DNA of 64,000 nucleotides from Microbotryomycetes sp. JL201 (lineage: Eukaryota > Basidiomycota > Microbotryomycetes): contig JAQYUZ010000003.1 in the NCBI GenBank assembly GCA_033819885.1, positions 1-64,000 of the forward strand, given 5' to 3'. The notes beneath the pieces were generated by a model, which worked only from the letters and a program-made list of their open reading frames with translations, made no database searches and was not told the DNA's origin. Shown here piece by piece: positions 4,696 to 37,850 of this stretch; position 1 is the stretch's first letter; each line of letters begins with the position of its first letter. Position numbers and translations under genes: made by a program.

Positions 4696-5914
4696 ATGTC
4701 GTCATGGATGTATTCATCGTCTACAAAACGCGGTCGTCAATCTTTATCGCCGCCATTAGCCGCACAAAGAGACGCAGAAGCGATCGTCGACGCTGCTACG
4801 CGCCTGCACGTCGTGCACGCGCACGAGGCCGCCCTCATTCGCGGACATGATCGGCTCGTATCTCAGACCGAACGCCATGACGTGCCAAACACGCGACTGG
4901 TGCAGTGGACGGGCTCGTTGCCTGGCGATGAACGGCCTGTGTGGCTCGACAAGTGAGTGTGTCCACCTTCCATGGCATCGTGCTATGCATCGATCGAAAA
5001 AAGGCGTGCCATTTCCTTAGCGTGCATCGCGTGGACGGACACGCCATCCAGGTCGGAAATCAGACCTGGGACAGGCGTACTCAGATGTGCAAAGATGCTT
5101 CAAGGTCTTGGACAACATCTCACGGTGCCTCAATATCCTGCGTTACAGGTATGACGCGCTCAACTTGCTGCAGAACCTGCCTTTGCCTCAAGCGCCACCG
5201 TCTCCAGTCTTGTCCGACGGCTTCTCGGACTTGGCTTCCGACAGCGAAGAATTATTCTATTTTGACGAGGCTACGAGGCAGGAGATTGCTCAAGGCAAGA
5301 AGCGCCGAAGGCTCGAGATTGGACGAGAGCACCGCATGCGCGAGCTCGCAAAGCAACAAGAGTCGCACTCGGCCGAGGTTCAAGAAGCTTCAGAGGCACG
5401 TGTCTCTTCCGGCTTTCTAAAGCATGCAATCCGACTCTTACTGTGCTTGCAGCCGTCACAGAAGCAACTTACAATGATGCAGAAATTGCACGCCACGCTC
5501 TCTTCATCCGCAGAACCTGCTTTGCTCGAGATGCGCATCATGGCCAACTATGCATCCGATCCGCGATTCTCGTTCCTGCGCAAGAATGGTCAGTTTCGCG
5601 CAGAGTGGGAGGAGATTCGGGCGGGCAAGCTGGCGGCTGTAACGACCGAGAGCGAGGCGGCACAGTCGACGCTTGTTGGCTACGGAAGCGATTCCGATAA
5701 CGGCAGTGACAAAGTCGGCAAGGACTTGGTAGCGGGGCTCGACGCCGGTGGCGATGACATCAGCCATCACAAATCTTTGATCGCCCGCAACACTGAGGGA
5801 GATTTCCAGTCGAGCGACTTGTCGAGGCAGAAGCAAGAGCAAAGGGCGCGCAAGGCGAAAGCGTGGGCAGAGCGGCGGCGGGCAGAGCGAGAGCCGCCGC
5901 AACAAGATGTATGA
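4696..5914 (+). CDS. SWAP-family splicing regulator (DRY_EERY + SURP domains)
   Basis: Exons 4696-4952 and 5149-5914 give about 340 residues. The 196-nt intron is long for this genome, but only this acceptor both keeps phase and restores the SWAP N-terminal signature: LVQWTGSLPGDERPVWLD from exon 1 joined to KYDALNLLQNLP in exon 2, matching the W-x-G-D...DRYD-LL pattern of suppressor-of-white-apricot proteins. The second half holds a SURP-like helix (LHATLSSSAEPALLEMRI, then SDPRFSFL) and a basic C-terminus (RKAKAWAERRRAEREPP). Family members act in nuclear pre-mRNA splicing control. A 51-nt in-frame segment near 5402-5452 just before the SURP region could be a further weak intron. The protein lacks the long RS tail of animal SWAP. 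Confidence 0.72.
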
Positions 5915-17782: not shown

Positions 17783-20700
17783 ATGGCCGGCCGCGATGGG
17801 TCCGCCAAGGGCCAGCTGTACAGTCATTCGCTCGATGTCGCGCGCAGGATGGGCCTCTTTGCCCAGCAGACGGTCGCCGACGCAAAGGGCAAGGTGATCG
17901 TCACCGCGCTCGCCCAGGGCGCCGGCATGGACTGGAAAGAGCTCGAGCGCAAGTTCAGCAAACACAACCCGCAACGTGAAGGTGAGTCTGGTCGAGGATA
18001 GCCATCAAAGATCGACGAGTCTGCAGCCATGACGGCACTAGTCGCTTGTGGGGAGGTCGGCAACCCGCCCCGCTCATCCCGTGAAAGCGGTCAAGCGCTT
18101 GATTGGTACAAATGACTGTGACTGAAAGTCATCATCGCATGTGGGAGTCACGACACTCTGTCAACTTGCCGGGCTTGAGCTCTTCGTTTCAAAGTACAAG
18201 GCCGGCACAGTTGATCGTAGCTGACTCATTCTGGTCACTCTTCCCTTCCTATGCTTGACAGTCGTCGCGGCTGCAGCACATACCGACCAGACGGTTCACA
18301 GCTTGCTCGCCAAATCGTCTGCTGCTCCGACAATTCCAACTTCCACATTGCCTCCGCTCCCACCCACAATCTCGCAATCTTTAACGTCTGTCGCGCTTTC
18401 GAGCATCACCTCGCTCGAATCGGCATTGTCAAATGGCACAGGTTCGGCCGTCGACAAGGACTCGGCGCGAATCGTAAAGGCAATCGCCCTGTACGCCGTG
18501 GGTGACTTTGAGCAGTGTCTCAGAGAACTCCAGCGTGTGGACAAGGACATGCCAAACTCAAGCTTTGAGCCGTACGACTTGACTTTGAGAGTGGCGGCAA
18601 ACGCTTACGAAGGTGCGATCCCTCACTCATTTTTTTGTGCTCTTCTCTTCGCGCATCGGCCACTTAAACGGTTTTTCTGCCTCAGGGTATGCTCTCGAGC
18701 AGGTACAAAGGGACAAAGAAGCTATTCCAGCGTATGGGAAGGCGGGACGCGTGTATGATGAAGCCTGCGACGCATTGCGACGGCAGGGCGGCTCGAAAGA
18801 CGATATCGAATTGCACAAGACGGGAGAGGCTGCCTTGTTCAGGCTGTGCTTGTGGGCGAAAGCGGCTGCGTATGTCTTTGCGTTTGCTACAGACCGCCTA
18901 GAGAGACTGACACTGCAACAACCTCAGTGATCCGCATCAGGCGTACCAAGCGCACCGCATCTACGTCAACCGTGCCGAGACCTGCCCCGTGTCGCCATCA
19001 CCCTTCTCCCAAAGCCACGTCGTTCGAGTGTTGACGGCTTTTCGCGAGCTCATCACGTCGACTCGCCGTTGGGACGATCTTAGCGTCGCGAATCGCACGC
19101 AGGAAGCCATTTTGCGACGAACCACGAGCCTGCCAATGGCTGGCGACGTCAATGTCGAATACGTCAAATTTCTCGATGCCGTCGCTGACGGGTGGCGGCG
19201 GAGCGGTGCCGGGCCCGAAGGCGCTTCAGAAGTGGTCAATGTGCGTGCCCATGCGAATCTGTCCGAGCCGGAGCTGACCCTTTGGCGACAGATCATGTAC
19301 AATGCGCTCACGCACACGTTTCAATCGCACCGGTTGCTACGCCATTTGGCAAGAGCGCTCGTCGCGCTGGGCCGTCACGATGAAGCCGGCAAAGCCTTGC
19401 GTTTGTACCATGAATTGTTCAACAAGTCGAAAGAGACGGATCCAACCGTCGTCGCACGAGAAATGCGTAAATTCCGCGAAACCGAAAAGCGAGGCGAAAC
19501 TGGTGCGGACGCATTTGCAGGCGAAAAGCAATCTGCTGAAAGCAAAGGTCAAGCGGAAGAGTTCGAGAACGACGCAGACACGGACAGGCAGTTTGTCGAA
19601 ACGGTCGCATTTGCGGTGCGCGTGTTTGTCAAGTACCTGGACGACCCCGCGTTCGCCGTTGACATGGCCAAGCGTGCACGTCAGCTGTTTGACGACGAGA
19701 GATCGAAGTTGAAAGGCGATGCCAAGCTCGAAAGCCAGCTCGAGCGTACGCTGGGAATCGCGCTCGGGGCTCGAGCTGCGAAAGGTGAGCTCGTATGGTC
19801 ACGGTGGCGATTCACGTTTTTGATGCCCTTGTCTTTCAGAACAAAACCCGGAAACGAGACCGACATCTCAGACCGAGGCCCTTGCGCATCTTGACAGAGC
19901 TAATCAACTCGATCCCGAGTCGTGGCAGACGCTGTACCATTTGGCCTACCAGCTGGCCGAACTACGACAAATCACACCGGCGCTTGACAAGGCTCGTCAG
20001 GCTGTCGAATTGTGCAGTCGATCAAAAGGCGGGTCGGCCTACGTCGATGCGTGGCACTTGCTCGGCTTGCTCGTCGCCGCCCAAAAAGAAACGAACGAGT
20101 GCCTCGTCGTGCTCGAGACAGCCATTGACGACGGCGAGAGTGATGAAGATGACGGCGAGGTTGCCAAAAACCGGGTCAACGGCACAGGACGTTTCTTGAA
20201 CGCCATTGACTCGCGGCTGCAACGCTTATCGCTGGATTCCGACTCGCGCAAACCGTCTGCCGAGTGCAATTTTGAGCTATTCCGCGACGAGACGGAGCAG
20301 CTGGTCGCCGAGGTTCAGCTGCGCATGACGAAGAATGTCGTCATCGAGGTGATGGAAGGACCCGAGGCGGCATTGGTCGACCAGCAAGCTTTGCTGGCGT
20401 ACTTTTCATCGGCTTACGGCGAGATTCGCCAGCAGCAGCCTGGTGCGTAACGCATCATGTATTTACTTTGTTGTTACTCATGCTTGCCTTTGCAGTATCG
20501 GCAGAGGATTCTTCTTCGCCGCCGCCGGTCGGGCTCGCCAACTCGGGTGCGAGCCTCAAACAGACAACGTCGCGTCCTCGATCGATTCGGGGCCTTGTCA
20601 GCAAGAGCAAAACAGACCTCACACTTGACCGTAATGGCACGATCGAAGCACCCGAGTCGCCACTGATTTCGACAAACGGCGCCAACATGCCTTCGGTGGC

Positions 20701-21291
20701 CTCCAACAAGAGGGCAACGAAATTGCTTGTCGACCTGTGGCTCATGTCTGCGGCATCTTACAGGCGCGCGGGCAAGCACAGCGACGCACGAGGCGCGATC
20801 GCCGAGGCCGAAAAGCTCGATCCCGAAGATGCGGACGTGTGGGTGCAGGTGCGTCCATGCGCGTCTTTCTTTGTGCAGTGACGCTGGCTAACGTGTGCTG
20901 GGCTTGCCAGTTTGCGATGCTCAACACAGCTCGCGGCGACAGCGACACGGCTCGCACAAGCTTGCACAAGGCCTTGTCGTGCGAGCCAGATCACTTGGCC
21001 GCGTTGCTATGTCTCGCGCGACTGTACATCGCTCCGTGCCTGGGCGACAAGCCCGAAGCGACGGCGATCGACCGCAAATTGCCGTTTGCCGAAGGTTTGC
21101 TCGAAACATTGACAAAGCGACATGGGTGGGATTCTGCGGAAGCGTGGTTTGAGCTGAGCAAGTGTTTCAACCTCAAGCAAGACAAGCTCGGACGACGACG
21201 TGAGCGCGAACGCGAGTGCCTTGTGTGGGCGCTGCAGTTGGAAGAGACGAGGAGCGTCAGGAGATGGGACGCCGTGCCGAGGGTGTTGTAG
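17783..21291 (+). CDS. YPP1: Ypp1/TTC7-like TPR protein
   Basis: Seven exons (17783-17981, 18262-18612, 18686-18869, 18928-19784, 19840-20442, 20496-20848, 20911-21291) give 975 residues. It is mostly helical with TPR-type repeats: GDFEQCLRELQRV near the N-terminus, LARALVALGRHDEAGKALRL midway, EALAHLDRANQLDPESWQTL, and at the C-terminus SYRRAGKHSDARGAIAEAEK followed by ARTSLHKALSCEPDHLAALL. Family members (yeast Ypp1, animal TTC7) bridge Efr3 to the PI 4-kinase Stt4 at the plasma membrane and so control PI4P supply and endocytosis. The first intron is unusually long (280 nt). All six introns are GT-AG. Length fits fungal Ypp1 (about 820-1200). An acidic DGESDEDDGE loop sits inside the central repeats. 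Confidence 0.82.
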
Positions 21292-21995: not shown

Positions 21996-24209
21996 TCAGG
22001 CATTCTCCTTCATGACCGTCTCGGGTTTGTCTGCGTCAGCCCATCGGTTCATCGCTTCGGCGTGAATTTCTGCCGGACTCGGACCTCCAAACAGCTGATC
22101 CATTTCTTCGAGAGGAACACCGCGAGTTTCTGAGAAGAGGTTGGATCAGTTTGGATTTGCCAGGAAACACCACGTCTATCTCACCGGGAACGCAAAAGTA
22201 CAGCCAAACAGAGCTCACAGTTAGCTACAGGCGGTTCCCAGATCAGCGAGAGAAAGCGAGTGCAAGACGTCTTGGTGTGCTCACGCAAGAGGCAAACAAG
22301 TACCAGGCTGAGCGCGTGATGGTGTCAGCGGCGGATTGCTTTCGAACTTTTTCGAGACAGAGCTCACTGCCGTAACCCAGGTTGGCAATCATGTATGGCA
22401 CAGACTTGCCCAGCATTACTGCAGAGCATTGTCAGCACGCGGATCGCGACCAATGCAAAGGACGGACAGTTAAAGGCCCAATGCGTCGTCGTCGTGATCG
22501 AAACGTTGAACGATCTGATCCTGAGCGGGAAGATTTCTGAGCAGTACACCCAAGGTACACCCGCGTAGCTGAAGCAGAAGGCGACCGCGTAAAGAAATAT
22601 GAATACGATCGCAGCGTAAGAGGAACCTGCAATGGTCGAAGCGCCAGGAGTGGGAGGGTGGGTCTTGATGATGCTGCCAACGACCCACATGCAGATGGCC
22701 ATGGCAGAACCGCCCCAAAGCATCATCGTCACGCGACCGGCGCGGTCGGAAACGACAGCCATGGCAATGACGACCGCGACAAGCCTGACGACGCCGTAAA
22801 TACCTAGCAACCAAGCTCGTCAAAAACATTCAATGAGCTCCAGCAGCCCGAGCTTCTCACCGGATGCAAAGAGTGAAGAGCTCGTGCCCGTGAGACCAAA
22901 GCTTTTGAAAATGCCTGTGCATACGAGTCAGCGTCTGCGCAAAGTACCGCTTTTCCCGTGACGTACGGGTGCTGAAGTAGTTGATCGCGTTGGTCTGTCG
23001 AGAAAATGCGTGAGTACATGATCAAGAGACGCCGTGCAGACGCTTGCTTACTCCACTCATTTGAAACGAAATCACTTGAATCGTGCAGTCGAGTTAGTCG
23101 AGGCGGCACCCGGTAATGCACAGCATCAGTTCCGACTTACTGATGCACACACCGGTGAACAAGCGACGGCGGTTCGACTTGCTGAAGCTCTCGCGAACGA
23201 CTTGTATGTACGAACCAGCCTTGAGCTTGCGTTCATGCTCCAGTTGCTCGAGGATACCCAGCAGCTCTTCTTGAATGTATGCATGTGATTCCGGCAAGTT
23301 TCTCAGTCGAGAGAGTGCTTTCTCGGCAGCACTGGCCCCTTTTTTGCTTGCGATGAAGCGCGGTGTCTCCGAGACGAAACAGAGGCCGAGCAAAAAGAGT
23401 CCGCCAAAGACTAGCTGCAAAGCGATTGGCAGACGCCATGACTCGGAACCTTTGAGGTGGTTCAAGGAGATATACTGTGAAGGGTGAGCCAAGCCTCAGC
23501 AGATGCAAAGGTATGTCGTGTGAGCGCCACTCACCGGAATGAAGAATCCGAGGCATGTCCCGGCTTGGACGCCGATCTCGTAACAGCCAGTCAGTCGTCC
23601 ACGCAGATGGGGAGGCGAACACTCGGACACAAACACTGGGGCGAGCATAGAACTGGCTCCGACGGCCCAACCAGTCACGATTCGGCCGACAATCAAAAGC
23701 GCATGCGCATCGGCGGAACCGGCTCCGGCAACAGTCATGAATACGCATCCGACGATATAAATAAAGCTTGTCAACATCAATGCTGGCACGCTCCGGCGTC
23801 AGTCTCCGTCACCAGTGTGTTTGGCCGTGGAACTGACTAGGTTTTCGGCCTAGACGGTCACTGAGCGGTGCGGTAAAGAGGCAGCCAAAGACGCAACCGG
23901 CTTGAAACACGGCAATCACGTTGCTTTGAAAGGCTGCAAGGTCTTCGGCGCTTCTGCCTTTGTAGCCAAAGTCTTCGATAAAGCTTGGCAAAGCAACCGT
24001 ACCGCCAACAAAACCTGGCAGCGTCAATTTCCTGTCAGCTCGCGTAGGCTTGCGAGTATTCAATGTATCTCACCCAAGTCGTATCCAAATAACGAAGCCG
24101 CCGACAAACCAACAAGAGCGACGAGCAGGATACGAAAGTTCATCGTCTCTGGCGGCGGCTCGACATGCCCGGGCGCAGGCTCTGGTGTTCGAAACTTGGC
24201 AAAAAGCAT
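21996..24209 (-). CDS. MFS transporter, sugar-porter family (paralogue 1)
   Basis: Twelve exons on the minus strand (24209-24074, 24014-23838, 23782-23535, 23474-23141, 23074-23052, 22994-22967, 22914-22861, 22803-22468, 22418-22368, 22307-22285, 22224-22185, 22129-21996) give 527 residues, the usual size. Signatures of the sugar-porter branch are LFGYDLGFVGGTVALP, PLSDRLGRK, GRIVTGWAVGASSMLAPVFV, SECSPPHLRGRL, SETPRF and PETRGVPLEEMD, with about 12 membrane segments. Several middle exons are only 23-54 nt. The family carries sugars, quinate and other polyols or organic acids by proton symport; the substrate is unknown. It lies tail-to-head with a diverged paralogue and beside a PrpF-type enzyme and a tricarboxylate carrier gene, which suggests an organic-acid substrate. 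Confidence 0.88.
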
Positions 24210-24806
24210 CTTAGGAGCGTCCTCAAAACTTTGTGAGCGTGGTGAAGAGGAAAGAGCAGTTCTGTTCCACGCGCGTGCAGGTCCTTTTATGTGGCCGCGA
24301 CAGACTTGCTTTAAAAATAGTGGCGGAGATTTATATCCGGGGTGCGCTCGCGGGGCAGGTCTAATGGACAATCAATGTGCGTCTTCAAGCAGAAGGCATC
24401 AAGCGGCGCAACATTGTGTCGTTACTATTGATAGCACACAAAAGGATGCTCGGTCTAGCGACCAACACCGGCAAGACGAGTGGGTCAAAGATCGAGAACA
24501 AAATTGCGAGGGCTCGTTGAGCCAGGTCGGCACACCGAGACAAAGTGGCATGACCCTGCCATTTTCATAGACGCTGACACTAAATGCGTTCGACTCGTTG
24601 TCACCTCTTTGCAAGTCACACGTCGCACTCTCACGTGGACCATGCATTACCAAGATCTTTTACGCGAGCGGTTTGCCGCAATTGCACATATTGCCATCCT
24701 GGGTTAGAATACAACTACATCTATTGACCCAATACAGCGTCTCAACATAATGACATACAACCGACTGAGCCAAACTATAGCCTTGACTATGTGCACCGTT
24801 CTTTGC
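24210..24806. other. Intergenic region between the tandem transporters
   Basis: A 597-bp gap. The open frame of paralogue 1 continues upstream of its start to 24371, but that stretch (a run of mixed basic residues) does not resemble the family, so I start the gene at 24209. The rest probably holds the promoter of paralogue 1 and the 3' UTR of paralogue 2. Confidence 0.4.
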
Positions 24807-26822
24807 TTAGACAGACTCGCCGTCTTTCTCGTCGACAGTCTCGCGATGGCTGACTGTGCCAGTCTCGGCCTTGTCGTGCAGACGCTTCTCTGTCTGCTCC
24901 GCGCGAGAACTTCCGTTGAACAGTTCGTCCACTACGGTGAGAAACCGGATATCAGTATAAGGCTTGACCTGTTTGACGCGCACTCAGCTACTCACTGTCT
25001 TCGAGAGCGACACCCTTGGTCTCAGGAAGGAAAAAGTACGTCCAGATAAATCCGAGCGTGAGCATGGCAGCGAAAACAAAGTAGGCTGTCGAGACGAGCG
25101 ATCAGCAAAATTCGAGACGAGCTCGAGCAACGCGAACGTACTGCCATATTTGATGTTGGCAATCATGTACGGCACCGACTTTGCAATGCACAGGTTAAAC
25201 GCCCAATGTGTGAACGTCGTGATGGCCACGTTGAAAGAACGAATGCGCAAAGGAAAGATTTCGCTGCAGTAGATCCACGGGATTCCGGCGTACTGCGAGC
25301 GTGCAAGTCAGCAACGCGCTCAGACGACACCTGTGCTCGGCGGCTTACTGAGAAGCAAAACGCCACAGCATACACATAGATGAGCGTAATGGCAGCGTAT
25401 TGACCAGGCACAATCTGACCGCCAGGTGAGGCAGGGTACACTGCGATCAAGGCGCCGACGATCCACATGCAGATTGCCATGATACCGCCGCCACACATGA
25501 GCATGGAAACGCGTCCGAATCGATCGGTGAAGAAAAGCATCGAGATGATGGTCGCGACCGTGCGCACAATACCATAAACTCCCGTCGCAAAGAGCTTGAC
25601 GCTCGTGCCCTTGAAACCGAGATTGGCAAAGACTGCAAGCGAAACAATTAGCACACTCAAGCCAATCGTGAGTGATTATAGAATCCAACTGACTTTTGGG
25701 CGAGTACTGGCAACGGTGGAGCTTGAATCAGCACGATCCCGTTCAAGCTTCAGTTCGACCGCAAACTCACGTAGTTGATCGCATTTGTACCCGAAAATTG
25801 GAAGAAGATCATCAAAGTGACTGCCTTGAAGAGCCGTACCCGGTTGTTGGGCCCGAACGTTTCGCGAAGAACTTGGAAGCGACCAGATCCAGCGGTAGCG
25901 GCACGCTCGTTTTCAACTTGCTCGACGATGCCAGCGAGCTCGGCTTGGACGTATGGGTGATCCATAGGTAGATTGCGAAGGTAGCTGAGCGTCTCTGCCG
26001 CGCGCACTTCGTTGTGGGCCTTTGCCATGTAGCGTGGCGTCTCGGTCAAAAACAGCATGGCAACGTTGAGAGCAACGCCTGGGACAAGTTGAATGCCCAT
26101 CGGTCCCCGCCATTGAGCTGATGACTCTTCATGTACAGCCTTGAGGAAAATGTAACCGATCCAGAAGCCTGCAGCCGTGCCTGATAACACTCTCGATGTC
26201 AGCGACACCATGAGCAGATTGTTGAATCTTCACTCACCAGCCTGAATAGCCACCTCATACACTCCAACCAGCCTTCCACGCAGAGACGCTGGTGCACATT
26301 CTCCGATGTACACAGGCACGAGCATGCTCGTTGCGCCAATGCTCCATCCCGTTAAAACTCGACCAGCGTACACCATGTTGAGCGCATGAGAAGCAGTGGC
26401 CGCGCACATCAAGACGGCGCCAAGGTTGAAGACGAACGCCGTGACAAGAATGGCGATCTTGCGACCGAACTTGTCGCTGAGAGGAACTGCCATGAACGAG
26501 CCAAAGCAGCAGCCGGCTTGGAAGATGGCGACAATGTTGGACTCGAGCATGCTCCTGTACGCCGCTCCCCTCGAATCGGTGCCAAAGTATGATTCAAAGG
26601 CAGGCAAGGCGAGCGTGCTGCCAATGAATCCTAGGTCGTACCCTGTGTGGCGGCAAATCACGTCAGTCGTGCCCGGCCTGCGCGGGGGCGACGCTTACCA
26701 TAGCAGAGACCACCAAGAGAAGCGGCGATGGCGAGAAGGATAATTCTCCAATTGTTGACCTCTTTCGGTGTCGGAATCGGGCCCTCGTCTTTGACTTTGA
26801 AAGACAGCTTGCCTTTGGCCAT
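24807..26822 (-). CDS. MFS transporter, sugar-porter family (paralogue 2)
   Basis: Eight exons (26822-26699, 26642-26238, 26180-25771, 25706-25694, 25632-25349, 25292-25142, 25085-24996, 24931-24807) give 533 residues. Motifs: CYGYDLGFIGSTLALPAF, PLSDKFGRKIAILV, GRVLTGWSIGATSMLVPVYI, GECAPASLRGRL, TETPRYMAK, FFQFSGTNAINYYSPK and PETKGVALED. Exon 4 is a 13-nt microexon that supplies YSPK plus one base. The intron after the NIKYG segment falls at the same codon as the one after NLGYG in paralogue 1, but several others differ, so the pair duplicated and then gained or lost introns. A short acidic tail follows the last helix. The start lies 585 bp from the divergent PrpF-type gene, so the two may be co-regulated. 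Confidence 0.88.
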
Positions 26823-27407
26823 GACGACTTGGTGAGGAAGGTCTGAGAGGTTGGACTAGGCAAAAGGTGCTGGAGATTGAACGCTGGCGAGCGCAGGAGA
26901 GAATGAAGAAGAAGAGAGGCCTACGCCCCCGCACGCGATCTTTGTAGTCGCGCTGACGGACGTTGTAGACCAACACTCTCCGCGCGGGAGCCCCACGTGT
27001 GAGGCTGCCAAGACCGGAGCTTCTTATGGCACCGAGGCGAGTCGGGGGGAGAAGGGCTAGCATCGCAGCGTTGGACGCAAAAGATTGCGGACAATGTATG
27101 TCCTTGCAGCTGCGGGCGTCGGGCCCCGGCGAAATTGTTCGCGGGGCGTCCGGGTCTCACGGACGACCTGCATGATTAACAAGGTTGGTGTGAACTATCA
27201 ACAGGAATGCTCCGAGCGAGGAAACGGGGGTGCCGTCTTTGATTTTGCGCACAGCTTGTCGATTGCACGTTGGTGAGCGGACCGCGGAATGCGAATGTCC
27301 GCTCGGTGCAGGAAGGAGCAACTAACGGAACAACAAAGCGCAGACCGCCCCCTCAAGTGTCCTCATACGCGTTCCCATCTTGGGATTCTTCCTTCAATCA
27401 CATTGCC
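26823..27407. promoter_or_regulatory. Divergent promoter, transporter 2 / PrpF-type gene
   Basis: A 585-bp interval between divergently transcribed starts of a transporter and an enzyme gene. Zn2Cys6 regulators usually bind CGG-based half sites. Several CGG/CCG triplets are present in the interval, but I see no clean inverted pair that I would call an operator. Confidence 0.45.
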
Positions 27408-28776
27408 ATGCCTACAGCCATTGACGTCCCTGTGCCAACGGTTTCCAAGCGCCGCTCGGGCCCCCTTCGAGTGCCCGCGGCACTCATGCGCTCCGGCACG
27501 AGCAAAGGGCTGTTCTTCTGTCAGAAAGACTTGCCTGCTTCGCGCCAGGACTGGGCTCCGATCATCCTCGCGGCGATGGGCTCCCCGGATCCGTACAACC
27601 GACAGCTCAATGGCTGCGGTGGCGGAACCAGTACTCAGAGCAAAGTCGCCGTTGTTGGCATATGCAGCGAGCCCGATGTTGCCGACATCGATTATACGTT
27701 CATTCAAGTGCCCGTCAACAAGGCAGTGCTCGACTTTTCTGGCAATTGCGGCAACATGGTTCGTCATTTGCCCCGATGCAAAATACCTACGCTGACATAG
27801 TTCTGATAGGCGGCAGGATGTGGACCATTCGCTGTGGCGTGAGTGCGTTGACCGGTCTTCCCGAACTACACTGATGCGCTGAAATGCAGAGAAGGCTTGG
27901 TCAAGCTCAAAGGCTCACAAACCCGAGATGCGTTCACCGTCAGGATCCGCAAGTACGGCCATTCATTAGTTTCAGCCACGAGCTAAGCTGACATGACTCG
28001 CTAGCACCAACACTGGCACAATCATCAATTCGACGTTCGCAGTCAACGACGGTTATCCTGCCGAAGATGGCGAGATGGTCATTTCTGGCGTCGCGGGCGC
28101 TGGTGCACCAATTCGACTCGATTTCGTCAATCCTGGAGGGGCAATGACTGGAAAATTACTCCCAACCGGCAGGGCAGTTGACATTGTCACAGTCGAGGCG
28201 ACAGACGATCACGCGCGACTTGACGTTCCCGTGACGCTCATCGACTCTGCCAATCCGTTCTGTTTTGTGCACGCATCTTCGCTCGGGCTGCAAGGAAACG
28301 AGTCGACAAGCGACCTGATCGCCATGACAAACCTCATTCAAGATATCCGCGCTGCCGCATCCATCAAGATGGGTTTGGCCACCGACCTCGAAGCAGCGCG
28401 GCAGCGAATGAGCGTTCCGAAAATCGCCATTCTCGCTGAGCCAGCGACTTATACGACTCTATCGGGAGTGGTCATAGACTCAAACGACATGGACATTCAA
28501 GTGCGCGCATTTTCAATGGGCACGCTGCATCAAGCCCTTCAAATGACGTGCGCCGTCGGTCTCGCTTCCGCTTGCTCTGTTCCGGGCAGCATCCCCCATT
28601 CTCTCGTCGCGGACAGAAAATTTGCTGGTCCGCTTCGCTTTGCACAGCCAAGCGGTATCACGAGTGCAGACCACGACGCGAGTGTCGACGCGAGTGGCGA
28701 AGTGATAATCAACAGTGGCACAGTGTACCGGACAGCTCGGCGATTGATGGAGGGTAACGTGCTCGTCAACTTGTAA
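27408..28776 (+). CDS. PrpF-family isomerase (aconitate / methylaconitate isomerase-like)
   Basis: Four exons (27408-27758, 27810-27838, 27890-27952, 28005-28776) give 404 residues, close to bacterial PrpF (about 390). Family features: VPAALMRSGTSKGLFF near the start, SPDPYNRQLNGCGGGTSTQS, VLDFSGNCGNM joined by splicing to AAGCGPFAV, GTIINSTFAVNDG, SGVAGAGAPIRLDFVNPGG and DSANPFCFVHASSLG. PrpF proteins are cofactor-free isomerases that shift the double bond of 2-methylaconitate; Adi1 of Ustilago maydis, in the same family, converts cis- to trans-aconitate. Cysteines in the GCGGGTS and GNCGN motifs are retained. All introns are GT-AG. No methylcitrate synthase or dehydratase gene is nearby, while a mitochondrial tricarboxylate carrier is, which favours an aconitate role over propionate breakdown. 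Confidence 0.85.
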
Positions 28777-28897
28777 CTGATATTCAGGCATCTTGTACAT
28801 CGTTAGCATTTCGTAACTTCAGTCCATGCCTTGTCATTGCACCACTCTTCGTTGTAAATACAATCAACATATCTCGGTGTAAACAGTCGCGCGCAAA

Positions 28898-31698
28898 TCA
28901 CCAAGTCTCATTTGGCAACGTGCCACTTTCGCCACCGCCTGGCCAGTTGACAAGCGAGATGCCAAACAGGCTGTCTTGTTGAAACGCGTTCGATGGCGGC
29001 AAATTGTTATATGCGGCGGCAGGCACCGTCCACATATCTTGGTGAAAGTTGAATGACGACATGATTGCATCAATATCGACCGATGACGCTGCATGATTCG
29101 GCAATGCCAAATCGTCCGTCGCAGATTGCGAGGCGATCGAGTCGTGAGCTACGGCCACATTCAACCGATTGACGAGGCTTTCGATGATTGCAAGCGTCTT
29201 CCGCGCTCCGGTGTTGACATCAGCGTTTTCCCGAAGTCCATCCATGCATACTTTCAAGCATCGAGCAGCGTCAGAGGACGGACCTTGTTGCGCCGCCGTG
29301 CGCACGACAATGGTAGCAGCAATGTACGTTCCGTACGCGATCAAGTACGGCGCTCGACTGAGAGTATACGTCTCGCGGTAGCGAGTCAAGATCGCCGTCG
29401 CTTTTTTGGCTGCGTGCTCGCAGCGTGACCAGCACTCGGCCGCCACCGGACTGTGCGTCGTCTGCAAGTGACCCGATTCGAGAAACGGACGATTGACGAG
29501 GACTGTCAGCGTGTAATAGATTGAGCTGCAAGACGTGCGTTTCCGATTAGCTCGCCGTAACATGGAAGGAACGGGGACTGACTAGAGCGACAAGACGTGC
29601 GGAGGCGGCACTGGCAAAGACCCGTCCAGAGGATCGTATTTGAGGCACGCCGGAATATGCTCAGACCATTCTGCTAGACTTCTATTGTGCGTGTCTAGCT
29701 GCTGAAGTGGGTCTGGACAGTTGTGGTCGGCGTAGAACGTGTTGATGATTCGTCCCTGGATCGTTGTTTGTCAAAATGCTGCAGAAGAAGAGGCCAAGCC
29801 CACGCTTACCATGAGTACGGACAGAGAACACAACTCAGTGAATGTCGACACGCTGTACGAAGGCGAGCTCGTGTATGATCCCGTCGACGCGAACGCGAAT
29901 GGCGTCCATGGTTCTTGCTCTTCAAACATGTCGAAAAAAACGGGAGGCACCTTGACGTCGAACTCGTGCAAAGTGACCGCTCGTCCCTGATACAACGAGA
30001 TGATCTTGTCAAAGACTAGATGACCAGGTCAGTGATCGCTCTGTAACCTTTCATGAACGCGCAACGCACCGAACGCGGCCCACACGAGCCGTCGTCTGAT
30101 CTCGAGATCTGCAGGCTCGACTTCGCCACCTTGCACAACGCGTGACCGCCAATCGTGCAGCAGTCCTGCAGGAAGCGAGAGTCAGGCCCGAGTCTGGCCA
30201 CGTCTGTACTCAGGGACGAACCGAGATCCGAGAGCATGCGAAAAGCAATTCCAGAGTACACCCATGGTGCAGATTGCCAACCCAACGCAAAAAGAGAACT
30301 CGACAGCAATAGCAGCGCCTGAATCGTGGGAATGCGAGATTTGTCGAGCGATTCGCCGAGGAGCTCCTTGACACGTCGCAGGAACCGGAGCCCTGCCGTC
30401 CTCGGATCGTTGACGTCGTCAAACACTTCTGGACGCTTTGAAAATTTGGCGACGGAAAAGTAGATGGCGTTGAGGAGAAGTTTGGAAAAGTAAGGGCCAG
30501 AGCAAGCCATGTCTCGCATAAAAAGAGGTCTGTAAGTGATCAAGAAGGCATGGTGTTGTCGGTTCCAGTGTAAAGCAAGCAGGTGCATGGCGAGCTCTGG
30601 CTGAACGCCGTCGACTGCAAGAACAAGCTGGCCCAGTCAGCTTGACGCTGCGCGAAGGTCTGGTCGAGAACGCACAGTCGAGACTCCCAAGGGCAAGTGC
30701 TATCATTTCTTGATGTCGTTGCTCGGCGCAGAATGTCATCAAGCGGGAACGAATCTCCGAATCAGACAGAGGGGTTTTTCCTCCGGGAGCCACAGCTGAT
30801 GATGCTTCGCTCTCGTCAAAAAAGGCCGATGTCGGTCCGTGGGAAGTCGCATGTCTGAAAGGATTCTCAGTCATCGGATTCAAGTAAACGCAGGCTGTAA
30901 CTTACCCGCTCGAGGAATCAATGTGAAGGCGGCTCACAGGACCGCTCACTGCTCGCGAGACCTTGCCGGCGCCGTCGCTTGGTGCCGGTGCCGAGCCGGA
31001 CATTGAAATCGCAAGGGGTTTCGCCGCGGAAAACTTCAGCGCGGGCAAGTCGCTGGGCGCTTGGTGCGTCTGTTGCCACTTGCCGAGTTCGGCCGCCTGC
31101 TGCTCTTGATCACTGGTCGCCAAGCGATCTATGAACGCTTGCAGGGCATTACGCTCTGCTTCGAGCTCTTCAATCCTCTGGTGTGTTGGTCTGGTCACAG
31201 GTCACGTGAGTCGAGGTCCGCCTCATCAGACGCGTGCGTTCCGCCACGGCTGACCTTGGCTTCTTTGAGCGTTCAAGAGGTTCGCATACCGCGCCGTGAG
31301 CGAGACAAGAGCTGCATGGTACTTCGAGATCGCATTTGAGCTGTCAATCAGAGCGAAGCGACCGAGATCAGTGTCTTGTTGGCGGTCGGCTCCTGACAGC
31401 CGTCGGCGAGGTCCACAATAGTTTATATTGCCCAGCCTCACCTTGCGACGGCGACAGAAGCCACACGAGACGCGCGGCCTGGCCAATCTGCGTTTCTCTG
31501 GCGTAGTGCGAATCGTCAGCTCTGTCGATCGCGCGTTACAGATTTCTACAAGTATTACATTCCGTTGCTGTCTCACGGTATGCGAAAAGGTGACTTACTA
31601 TTGCTGCGTGATGGCTCGCCGGAACCTTCACGCGTCCTTTCAGTGTCGGCGGGGCTCGTGGACCCCACAGACTGCTGGTCGGGATTCGCGCCTGCCAT
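28898..31698 (-). CDS. Zn2Cys6 transcription factor with fungal TF domain
   Basis: Ten exons (31698-31599, 31521-31442, 31340-31255, 31190-30906, 30854-30676, 30614-30210, 30165-30070, 30015-29810, 29755-29583, 29525-28898) give 745 residues. Splicing assembles a textbook zinc cluster at about residues 53-79: CGFCRRRKLKCDLEVPCSSC then LAHGAVC (C-x2-C-x6-C-x5-C-x2-C-x6-C). A short coiled coil follows (RIEELEAERNALQAFIDRL), then a fungal-specific regulatory domain with LHWNRQHHAFLITYRP, PYFSKLLLNAIYFS and IQALLLLSSSLFALGWQ. The 44-nt intron at 30209-30166 is the least certain junction. The gene is convergent with the PrpF gene and shares a 294-bp divergent promoter with the mitochondrial carrier, so it is the likely local regulator. 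Confidence 0.88.
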
Positions 31699-31992
31699 CT
31701 TCTTTATTGATGCCGTTCAGCAGCCGCCAGAATGACAGCAAAAAGGGCCGCGGACGAAGCGCGCCCGTTGGACGGACAATTCTCGCGTTGGCGGCAAGTG
31801 AAACTAGCAACGCCGTCCGGATGATCGGAGCGGACAATAAGTGTCCGTTTCCCGAAGCACATGCCCAGCGGCGGTTCAATCCGGACACTCGCATCCGGCC
31901 GCGTTCCATACAGCACCTCGACACCCCGACAGAGTGCTTTTTTGTCACCCATCGCCTCCTCGTCGTCACTGTCGCCGCACCCAAAGACTCCA
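31699..31992. promoter_or_regulatory. Divergent promoter, Zn2Cys6 regulator / mitochondrial carrier
   Basis: Only 294 bp separate the two starts, so both genes probably share control elements. The interval contains several CGG triplets (for example CGCCCGTTGGACGG near 31764), which are candidate half sites for the adjacent zinc-cluster protein. This is a suggestion from composition, not a defined site. Confidence 0.45.
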
Positions 31993-33293
31993 ATGCCTCG
32001 AGACTCGACTGCAGCATCAAAGTCACTCTTTGCCGGCATCATTGCCGGCGGCATCGAAGGTTTCATTACTTATCCTGCAGAGTATGCCAAAACTGTAGCT
32101 CAATTTCAATCAAAACCTGGTCAGAAGGCGAGTCGTCGCAAACCGATTTGGATCGTAAGCCGTACCCGAGTAGTTGACAATTCTGTCCTGCTTGCAGCGA
32201 GTTGGTCCGGTCAAGATCTTGACAGAGACTCTCAAGACACAAGGCGTCAGGGGAATCTACTCGGGCTGTGGCGCTCTTGTCGCCGGCAATGCAGCGAAAG
32301 CCGGCGTTCGGTTCCTGACATATGATCAAATCAAGTCGTACCTTGTTGACGACACGGCAAGTTCAGCCTTCTTGACGTCTGTGGTGGCAATCTAACGCCG
32401 ACGCGGCTAACAGGGACGACTAACGCCCGCGAAAAGCCTGCTCGCCGGACTTGGTGCCGGAGTCTGCGAAGCCGTGCTTGCCGTCACGCCATCAGAAACA
32501 ATCAAGTACGCACACGTGCGCCAGAGGTGGCTTGAATCCTTTTCCTGACATTGTTCTGTGCGCGTACTCAGGACGAAACTCATCGACGATGCAAAGCGCG
32601 CGGTGCCGCAGTACAATGGACTCGCGCACGGCACTGTTACTATCTGCCGCACAGAAGGCTTCGCAGGCATCTATCGTGGCTTGTTTCCCACAGTGAGTTG
32701 CCACGCAACAAGCCTGGACAAGCCAATCCTTATGAGCCGACTCGCAGATTATGAAGCAAGGTGCCAACAGCGCTGTTCGGTTCACGTCCTACTCTACAAT
32801 CAAGCAATGGCTTCAAGACAGGTCTGGCGTCACCAAGCAGCTTTCAGCTGCAGAAACCTTTGCTGCAGGAGCAGGCGCCGGCGTCATTACAGTCTGCAAG
32901 TCGAGCAAAGGATTTGTCGACAGACATTTGCTGATGCTTTCCTGTTGAAACAGACGCCACAATGCCATTCGACACTGTCAAGACCCGAATGCAAAGTCTG
33001 AATGCAGCTAAAGAATATCGAAACAGCTTGCATTGTGTGCTTAGGGTGAGCGGGTCACCATGTTTCATCCTGTACAGCTCTGATCGAACTTGATGCTGCC
33101 ATTAGGTCGTTCGAGAAGAAGGTGCCTTGAGCCTCTGGGGAGGTGCCACGCCACGACTCGCGCGGTTGTCGGTGAGTTTCTACGAGCAAACACTGGCGTG
33201 TTGCGCATTGCTGAATCCTTGCCTCTGGGTGACCAGATGTCGGGCGGTATCGTCTTTTTCGTTTACGAAAAGATGATGGCCCTGATGAAATGA
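31993..33293 (+). CDS. Mitochondrial tricarboxylate-type carrier
   Basis: Eight exons (31993-32154, 32198-32356, 32414-32505, 32572-32692, 32748-32895, 32954-33045, 33106-33171, 33237-33293) give 298 residues. Three mitochondrial-carrier repeats each keep the P-x-[DE]-x-x-[KR] signature: YPAEYAKT, TPSETIKT and MPFDTVKT. The LFAGIIAGGIEGFITYP opening, GIYSGC, GIYRGLFPTIMKQGANSAVR and VRFTSY resemble citrate/tricarboxylate carriers (yeast Ctp1, Ustilago Mtt1). It would exchange citrate or cis-aconitate across the inner mitochondrial membrane. Introns 32357-32413 and 32896-32953 both use GCAAGT donors; the second is needed to restore GVITVYATMPFDTVKTR. Its position beside a PrpF-type isomerase, a regulator and two MFS transporters suggests that it feeds cytosolic aconitate metabolism. 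Confidence 0.87.
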
Positions 33294-36153: not shown

Positions 36154-37850
36154 TCAGTTGCTCTTTTTCTTGTCAATGGCCTTGTCCAGCGCATCAAGAC
36201 GCTCGATCAAAGTCGGATGGCTGTTCTTGTAGGCCGAGTACAGCGGGTCTGTTAATGTCAGTGCCTGCAACAGTCGAAATTCCCCGACATCAGTACGAGA
36301 CCTGAAATTGACAAACTCATGTCTGACCAGGTTCTTCTCGTGCAATGAGACGAGCGCGCCCTTGAGGTTTGAAGCCACGTCTGCGCCGAGCTTGCTTGCA
36401 AACTTGTCGGCGTCATACTCGAGCGCCCTAGAGATCATATTCATTACGAAATGGAGGATCGTCGACACGGGTGCAAACAGCAATGACGCGAGCAAGAGTG
36501 ACACGATGATCGGACCCGTCTGCGAGTTTGGAAACTGATTCGTCGAAAACCCAAATGCGGCGAGCAGCGACCGGTTAAAGAGCAAGAGTGAGAACGTCAA
36601 GAGAGAAAAAGATAGCTGAATGAGCGAGACTGCGAGCAGGATGACAATGTGACCGTGCTTCCAATGGCCGAGCTCGTGGCTGTGCGGCGCCTGTCAGTTC
36701 TGAATCTTTTCATTACCTGCTAGACACTTACGCGAGTACGGCTTCGATCTCTTCCGGTGATGACTTTTCGAGCAACGTGTCGTACAGTACAATGTGCTTG
36801 GTCAAGAACGGCAGGCCATAGAAGTACGCGTTCGAGTGTGACGAACGTTTCGAGCCGTCTATGACCCAGATGCGTCCCAGCGGAAATTCGAGTCTGTCGG
36901 CCAACGCTTTTGCTTTCGGATACACTGGCGAGTCTGTCGCAAGCGGCGTAAACTTGTTGAACAGGGGCGCGATCAGATACGGATACGTTGGAATCATAAT
37001 GATTTGGAACGCAAAAATCACGGCGAGGAGCCAAGCAACGAGCCTCAGGATGCCCGATCCTCCGATGCGTTCGATCAGCTTGAGGATGGCAGCGAGAAAC
37101 GGCAGCTCGATGGCAAGCGAGACGAGCAAGCCCTTGACGGCGTCGCCAAAAAATGTCTTGACCGTCATCTTGTTGAAACCGTGTTTCTGTTCGAGCACAA
37201 AATTGCTGTACAAGCCTTTTGGAATGGACAGGATCGCCGACACGAGCGACATGCACGCGACGAACGCGAGTGAGTGGCGCAAAGGCGACGCCGCTGCGAA
37301 TTGCGACCGACCGGCCAAGTTCCAAAAGCCCTTGAGCAGTGTCCAATTGCCGTCGTGTCCCACGCCCAACAGCTCGTACAGTTTCGTCGACAGCTTGTCT
37401 GACGCGAATCGCGTTTGGCCCAAAGTCGCCGGCTGGCCCAAATCGATGCCGAGCACCGTCAAGACGGGCGCACTAATGCCCGTGAGCAATACAATCGATT
37501 CGACGAGATCTATCAAATTGATTGAACTGCTGTAAGCGAGCTTGTCCAAGCTGTATCGTTGCGACTTGTGATAATTGTCCTGCGCTGTCGATGCAGGAAG
37601 GTATGGCGCCAGCGTCTGCGGCAGGGTTGGAAACAGTCTCGAATCGAGGAACGGTCGCTGTCGCACACTGGTACACGTCGCGTCAGTCTGCGTGGACGGA
37701 CTGCCGTGCCAACGGATCGTCGTCGCGCCTTGCTCACTTGATGTACGTTTCAAAGACAGTCACAGCGATTATGATGCCCACCATCAGTGCCTGCCATTCG
37801 ATCGTCGGGTCCTCGAGCCGCCGTTGCACATCTTGCAGCAGCGACGTCAT
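36154..37850 (-). CDS. STE24: CAAX prenyl protease 1 (Ste24, M48 metalloprotease)
   Basis: Three exons (37850-37738, 37667-36732, 36679-36154) give 524 residues. The zinc-protease motif HELGHWKHGH is created exactly at the second splice (EAVLA joined to HELGH). The third ligand lies in ALEYDADKFASKLG. Other hallmarks are EQKHGFNKMTVKTFFGDAVK, GRIWVIDGSKRSSHSNAYFY and multiple membrane helices of the ER/nuclear-envelope enzyme. Ste24 removes the -AAX tripeptide from farnesylated proteins such as lipopeptide mating pheromones and clears clogged translocons. It is somewhat longer than yeast Ste24 (453), mainly through an N-terminal segment. Both introns are GT-AG. It is convergent with the Ser/Thr-rich protein gene, only 51 bp apart. 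Confidence 0.93.

Follow-up and report, generated by a model that had tools for sequence, protein, structure and literature searches.

Which compound would a fungus process with five adjacent genes that code for two transporters of the major facilitator superfamily (MFS1 and MFS2), a PrpF-family isomerase, a Zn2Cys6 regulator and a mitochondrial tricarboxylate carrier? This gene set lies at positions 21996-33293 of the first 64,000 nucleotides (the window) of contig JAQYUZ010000003.1 from the basidiomycete Microbotryomycetes sp. JL201 (taxid 2987684), and its five genes are intact and contain introns. The answer that we favour, with a confidence slightly above even, is that they form a jointly regulated cluster for the catabolism of a tricarboxylate from outside the cell, trans-aconitate being the most likely one. 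This common plant acid is reported to accumulate in 47% of assayed grasses, hence the interest in fungal genes for its use.

For the substrate and direction of the pathway, the DNA binding of its regulator and the place of each step in the cell, we infer the following scheme. MFS1 and MFS2, proton-coupled transporters of the sugar-porter type with a positively charged pocket, would bring the acid into the cell, where a cytosolic PrpF protein would convert trans- into cis-aconitate by an allylic shift mediated by Lys79 and Cys114. A duplicated CTP1-like carrier would then deliver cis-aconitate to aconitase and the tricarboxylic acid (TCA) cycle inside the mitochondrion; tricarboxylate carriers take cis-aconitate better than trans-aconitate. 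The Zn2Cys6 protein, acting on the inverted repeat CGGACA-N5-TGTCCG in three intergenic regions, would switch on the cluster and its own gene. Because the equilibrium of Adi1, the PrpF isomerase of Ustilago maydis, lies at 88% trans (trans:cis 88:12, PMC4720413), the carrier would supply the pull in the direction of use, and a drain of this kind would account for the presence of a mitochondrial carrier in the cluster. The lack of a decarboxylase gene would follow as well, since an uptake route needs none.

Gene content and comparison with the itaconate cluster

The gene models were spliced by hand, and from them all the coordinates, strands and promoter lengths proposed in the first-pass annotation, which had been made from the sequence alone, were re-derived. 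Its assignment of the genes to an isomerase, a mitochondrial carrier of the tricarboxylate type, transporters of the membrane and a regulator is likewise supported. MFS1 (21996-24209, minus strand, 527 amino acids, 12 exons) and MFS2 (24807-26822, minus strand, 533 amino acids, 8 exons) both belong to the sugar-porter (SP) family (PF00083, 380 and 392 bits, respectively), a point that the annotation did not contain. The PrpF-family isomerase (27408-28776, plus strand, 404 amino acids, 4 exons; PF04303, 352 bits) is separated from MFS2 by a divergent intergenic region of 585 base pairs (bp). The regulator (28898-31698, minus strand, 750 amino acids, 9 exons) contains Zn_clus (PF00172, 33.6 bits) and Fungal_trans (PF04082, 56 bits) domains, and shares a 294-bp divergent region with the carrier (31993-33293, plus strand, 8 exons), whose refined model of 289 amino acids includes three GC-AG introns; its Mito_carr score (PF00153, 219 bits) was obtained with an earlier 298-residue model containing 9 extra residues. 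Introns in the cluster measure 49-101 bp, the refined carrier included. The public proteins OIV83_000638, OIV83_000637 and OIV83_000636 are identical to our models of PrpF, MFS2 and MFS1, and in the regulator the intron at 31176-31254 (AGAG) has an unusual splice acceptor, so that the model is unsure there.

The locus had been likened to the itaconate cluster of Ustilago maydis, described as composed of adi1, mtt1, itp1, ria1 and tad1 (PMC4720413). What stands of this comparison is the set of gene classes that the two basidiomycetes share, namely a PrpF isomerase, a mitochondrial tricarboxylate carrier, an MFS protein and a regulator encoded side by side, minus the decarboxylase Tad1, which has no gene in this cluster. 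The overall likeness is not supported, since the transporters of JL201 are sugar porters whereas Itp1 is EmrD-like (set apart here by its description). Ria1 is a basic helix-loop-helix (bHLH) protein, and the Zn_clus and Fungal_trans domains bear out the claim that the regulator of JL201 is of another class.

The isomerase, carrier, MFS and regulator genes together equal the Ustilago set without Tad1, and they would fit a cluster for itaconate, or another decarboxylated product, whose decarboxylase is encoded elsewhere in the genome. We regard this as hardly credible. Profile searches of the genome, whose assembly may be incomplete, found no Tad1-like or CadA-like gene: TIGR02426 gave four CMLE-like matches in three genes, with gene fragments that score best as fumarase (450 vs 57 bits), adenylosuccinate lyase (124 vs 53) and argininosuccinate lyase (248 vs 34), and PF03972 matched a single gene that fits 2-methylcitrate dehydratase (PrpD-type). 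Every match thus fits another enzyme, and within these searches a hidden decarboxylase was rejected, in line with the statement of the first-pass annotation that the cluster lacks one.

Transporters, isomerase and carrier

PF00083 (Sugar_tr) is by far the best family for MFS1 and MFS2, and their nearest solved structure is STP10 of Arabidopsis, to which the residue numbers 42, 142, 332 and 433 used here correspond. In STP10, D42 and R142 are described as the proton donor/acceptor pair, and N332 and N433 as asparagines that contact glucose. The D42/R142 pair is present in both MFS1 and MFS2, and of the 120 matches listed in the transporter search, 106 have the aspartate (11 gaps) and 113 the arginine (6 gaps). 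In contrast to STP10, N332 is replaced by arginine and N433 by histidine in MFS1, in MFS2 and in the transporters that accompany PrpF in Tremellomycetes (see below); this R/H combination occurs in 57 of those 120 matches, K/Q in 51, and 12 have other residues or gaps. From these residues, MFS1 and MFS2 are read as probable proton symporters of an anionic substrate.

Relatives of MFS1 and MFS2 carry the UniRef label 'Quinate transporter', which could point to another substrate for the cluster. However, in a tree of 30 of the 120 listed matches, built with a quick method, MFS1, MFS2 and the Tremellomycete transporters belong to a single clade that comprises 12 rows, including an unnamed one (support 100 in the Shimodaira-Hasegawa-like approximate likelihood ratio test, SH-aLRT), and the sampled quinate permeases fall on the other side. 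QutD-type permeases are members of the same sugar-porter family, but they have lysine, mostly with glutamine, where MFS1 and MFS2 have arginine and histidine; K/Q is also what four entries with a quinate permease or QutD label carry, their identity being taken from that database label. On both counts, MFS1 and MFS2 do not fall with the fungal quinate permeases. As a separate observation, the relatives of MFS2, many of them labelled quinate transporter, split into R/H and K/Q groups, and the label looks unsafe for the R/H class.

The type of transporter also bears on direction. The first-pass annotation leaned to export and gave uptake as the alternative; we now reverse this order, because MFS1 and MFS2 share with symporters the two residues of proton coupling and do not belong to the EmrD-like type of Itp1. 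This feature was weighed heavily because, in Bacillus velezensis, where tarA (PrpF), tarB (MFS importer) and tarR are responsible for trans-aconitic acid assimilation, it has been proposed that whether the acid is used or produced depends on the transporter rather than on the isomerase (PMC11495376). The tar operon is the closest parallel to the cluster: both combine a PrpF-superfamily aconitate isomerase or its candidate counterpart with a known or putative MFS importer and an adjacent regulator, although tar is a bacterial operon with a LysR-type regulator and no need of a mitochondrial carrier (PMC11495376). Of the features of the tar type, a PrpF with the catalytic lysine and cysteine can be recognised in JL201. 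For the other two, JL201 has a linked MFS protein with the proton pair and the R/H pocket, which may be an importer of trans-aconitate, and a linked regulator together with a shared motif that it may bind.

Conversely, the genes could serve biosynthesis and export, with the carrier releasing mitochondrial cis-aconitate, PrpF producing the trans isomer and the MFS proteins secreting it, e.g., as a defence acid or a metal chelator. The scheme would then resemble the first half of the Ustilago route. Mitochondrial carriers can run either way. The isomerase equilibrium lies on the trans side (PMC4720413). Moreover, tbrA/tbrB of Bacillus thuringiensis, which likewise pair an isomerase of the PrpF type with a transporter of trans-aconitate in the membrane, make this acid and export it through a protein of another MFS subfamily (PMC11495376, PMC8871043), and the isomerases of the two Bacillus systems are reported to be interchangeable (PMC11495376). 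However, MFS1 and MFS2 are SP-type proteins with the STP10 proton pair, unlike the EmrD-like Itp1, and the bacterial relatives of the cluster PrpF often lie beside uptake and catabolic genes, so that we consider export unlikely.

K79 and C114 of the cluster PrpF align with K73 and C107 of the Shewanella protein (SoPrpF), residues described as important in that enzyme, and both are invariant in an alignment of 15 rows. Its scores remain below the curated cut-offs of the models for 2-methylaconitate cis-trans isomerase (TIGR02334, 272.4 bits, cut-off 440.55) and 4-oxalomesaconate tautomerase (NF033377, 284.2 bits, cut-off 440). A tree of 44 rows (20 of the 120 listed proteins, 18 of 80 bacterial loci, five sequences of solved structures and one paralog from the same genome) contains a fungal clade of eight rows, two of them unnamed (support 100/99), whose sister clade consists of bacterial proteins with a PrpF domain (98/94 for the bacterial clade). 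The cluster PrpF lies outside the pair formed by SoPrpF and PaPrpF (from Shewanella and Pseudomonas), and outside Mii and LigU/YbhH. A grouping with propionate PrpF, which the first-pass annotation had named as evidence against its proposal, is therefore not what the tree gives, and a propionate-type PrpF was rejected by the TIGR02334 score, by the position in the tree and by the presence in the genome of its own PrpD-type 2-methylcitrate dehydratase. Ustilago does not appear among the named proteins of the 120 PrpF matches listed, many of whose entries are unnamed. A second PrpF-family gene of the same genome (C7:221655-222224) is very distant, with an end branch of 6.0 from a rough model.

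The sister clade provides a further indication of function. In 80 bacterial loci, all with PrpF (80/80), the tricarballylate dehydrogenase TcuA shares the locus in 27, and lies within 300 bp in 12; other neighbours are PrpB (18/80), TctC (17/80), MmgE/PrpD (16/80), GntR (13/80), an epimerase-like protein (11/80), AcnA (9/80) and an aldehyde dehydrogenase (7/80), and 22/80 loci have none of these eight families. These counts are lower bounds, as contig ends shorten some of the loci. The TcuA representative exceeds the cut-off of its curated model (533 vs 369 bits), that of AcnA passes the AcnA model and not AcnD, that of PrpB passes PrpB, and that of MmgE/PrpD stays below the PrpD models; Pfam confirms the TctC, MmgE/PrpD, epimerase and GntR representatives. 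TctA, ETF alpha and unrelated genes were also seen (10 open reading frames viewed, one of them fungal). TcuA and PrpF at one locus suggest a module for tricarballylate/aconitate that includes an isomerisation, and the neighbours as a whole, counted around bacterial homologues of the cluster PrpF, lean to tricarboxylate catabolism but to no one substrate. The tcuA-prpF neighbourhoods thus resemble the cluster in their tricarballylate/tricarboxylate setting and in holding the sister clade of the fungal PrpF; they differ in containing TcuA and Tct-type genes, and MFS is not a main neighbour family there.

Accommodating this diversity, PrpF could act on another tricarboxylate or branched acid, namely citrate/isocitrate, tricarballylate, methylaconitate or a product of aromatic ring cleavage such as 4-oxalomesaconate, which we judge improbable, if deserving of attention. 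The PrpB and MmgE/PrpD neighbours, the UniRef label of the transporters and the scores of 284 bits with the oxalomesaconate model and 272 bits with the PrpF model speak for it. These scores, however, stay short of the roughly 440 bits that either equivalog requires; the PrpD-type dehydratase makes PrpF unneeded for propionate; and MFS1 and MFS2 do not group with the quinate permeases sampled and for the most part have other residues than these at two positions of the pocket. Gallate ring cleavage was rejected, since the one LigB-type match is a gene fragment that fits 4,5-DOPA dioxygenase (51.9 bits, cut-off 233). A search of the genome for TcuA gave five weak matches, the best at 61 bits; with exons searched one at a time, the cut-off is difficult to attain.

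The carrier has matches named mitochondrial tricarboxylate or citrate transporter. In a tree of 17 of the 120 matches listed, the window carrier and the partial CTP1 of the same genome, the cluster carriers of four Microbotryomycetes form their own clade (98/100), apart from this CTP1, which lies on contig C4. The searches, the tree and a 97% match to the public protein OIV83_000640 refer to the 298-residue model. The refined model of 289 residues is identical at 262 of them, without gaps, to ACM66B_000504 of strain NB124-2, and the carriers of NB124-2, JL221 and Rhodotorula taiwanensis start at or adjoining its start. OIV83_000640 has, in comparison, a 44-residue N-terminal extension, an exon 1 that is longer by nine residues at its end and a different reading of the stretch around 32357-32413, and differs at two of the three GC-AG introns; it is probably mis-spliced, because the GC-AG introns give a protein that matches NB124-2 without gaps. 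Induction of mitochondrial carrier genes has been reported in Candida parapsilosis on hydroxybenzoates, and trans-aconitate is described as an inhibitor of aconitase and fumarase (PMC4720413).

Gene order in relatives and a shared promoter motif

Gene order in relatives was read from locus-tag numbers (in Kockovaella, from contig size). In JL201 the order is OIV83_000636 (MFS1), 637 (MFS2), 638 (PrpF) and 640 (carrier), and NB124-2 has the same one: ACM66B_000500 (MFS1), 501 (MFS2), 502 (PrpF) and 504 (carrier). JL221 contains OIO90_000942 (MFS2), 941 (PrpF) and 939 (carrier), and Rhodotorula taiwanensis keeps the order with BMF94_4477 (MFS1), 4478 (MFS2) and 4480 (carrier), with a single gene number between MFS2 and the carrier. 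The number skipped between PrpF and the carrier is consistent with a putative regulator gene. Among the 120 matches listed there is no MFS1 of JL221 and no PrpF of Rhodotorula taiwanensis; in the latter, PrpF may have been lost, the rest working without it, or it may be unannotated. Synteny, which the first-pass annotation had proposed as a check, is thus largely kept, with gaps (four genes seen in NB124-2 and three in JL221).

Part of this arrangement extends to Tremellomycetes. In Saitozyma, PrpF (EHS25_001039) adjoins an MFS gene (001040); Cryptotrichosporon has PrpF at 004908 and MFS at 004905; and in Kockovaella each of the two is on a contig of 1,071,374 bases. A Kockovaella carrier gene is on a contig of this length as well, but the tree groups this carrier with those of Papiliotrema and Dioszegia (100/100). 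Because this pair recurs in Tremellomycetes, the best-kept core is PrpF plus the MFS clade of MFS1 and MFS2. The grouping is beyond chance, since locus tags put the same neighbours together in other genomes.

The three intergenic regions have in common the inverted repeat CGGACA-N5-TGTCCG. The exact palindrome, CGGACAATAAGTGTCCG, lies in the regulator/carrier divergent promoter at 31831-31847 and is the only exact copy in the 17.15-megabase (Mb) assembly. Upstream of MFS1 there is a copy with two mismatches, TGGACAATCAATGTGCG (24365-24381), and the MFS2/PrpF promoter contains one with a single mismatch, CGGACAATGTATGTCCT (27088-27104), and a second, weaker one with two (27285-27301). The motif was first spotted by eye, and the scoring scheme of the all-motif test was chosen afterwards; in this test, covering 4096 hexamer half-sites with spacers of 0-12, no other inverted repeat common to the three regions scores as well (summed mismatches 3), a value that none of 60 dinucleotide shuffles reached (best shuffle 5). 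Restricting the half-sites to those with CGG (64, spacers 0-20), 0/300 shuffles were as good, the best again at 5. A search for repeats within each promoter alone gave nothing useful. CGGACA-N5-TGTCCG is a plausible, putative Zn2Cys6 site, which the cluster's own Zn2Cys6 protein would bind, and its presence in the shared promoters argues for co-expression of the genes.

These data also bear on whether there is a joint pathway at all. The missing MFS1 and PrpF among the listed matches of JL221 and Rhodotorula taiwanensis would be expected if the genes were merely neighbours kept together without a shared function. The order kept in several genomes, the proximity of PrpF and MFS in a second subphylum and the motif shared after correction for the search speak against it, and make such a coincidence very improbable.

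Outside the cluster, the flanks contain, by the appearance of their sequences, a TPR-repeat-like protein (17783-21291) and a protein resembling a Ste24-type CAAX protease (36728-37759). Scans of the window with Rfam and for tRNA genes detected none, and the viral_contigs scan gave no match.

Weight of the evidence and significance

Several results weigh against a trans-aconitate catabolic cluster. The equilibrium described for Adi1 favours the trans isomer, so that uptake needs a strong drain. The neighbourhoods of bacterial PrpF are mixed, with PrpB, MmgE/PrpD and a considerable group of loci with none of the families counted, therefore other tricarboxylates are possible; and a set of genes for citrate uptake would remain functional in Rhodotorula taiwanensis, where the PrpF gene, like MFS1 in JL221, is missing among the listed matches. 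The R/H transporter class is broad in fungi, exceeding the PrpF clusters in the matches counted above, and, because it is widespread in Ascomycota, its substrate range may extend beyond aconitate. Finally, the motif is not enriched: at three or fewer mismatches the window has 33 copies vs 36 expected, and at two or fewer the genome has 850 vs 940 for the reversed control. At least 48 other one-mismatch places were listed, and of the seven examined six are inside predicted genes and the seventh is upstream of none; these places and the genome-wide counts give no sign of a broad regulon.

Taking the catabolic reading further, and with a confidence just short of even, the cluster would represent a eukaryotic trans-aconitate regulon, composed of proton symporters of the plasma membrane, from a fungal class of sugar porters, with an Arg/His pocket for carboxylates, a PrpF that is sister to bacterial enzymes of tricarboxylate catabolism, a duplicate of the citrate carrier that passes cis-aconitate on to the mitochondrion and a Zn2Cys6 protein with its own palindrome, and its PrpF-transporter pair would be common to Pucciniomycotina and Agaricomycotina. 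The open text of PubMed Central (PMC), as far as it was covered, contains no description of a fungal gene set for trans-aconitate use, nor of a cluster with exactly this content, in agreement with the first-pass annotation, and the literature search found no paper on strain JL201.

A route for trans-aconitate uptake is known in bacteria, and a fungal gene set for it is apparently undescribed, although a fungus has been reported to consume the acid: over 10 days, Aspergillus niger lowered the content of trans-aconitic acid in distillery waste from 5.71 g/L to 1.59 g/L. If the proposed function is true, the cluster would provide testable genes for this consumption in fungi and a candidate fungal aconitate importer, useful for itaconate and aconitate biotechnology, and the sugar porters that are now labelled quinate transporters would receive a new reading.

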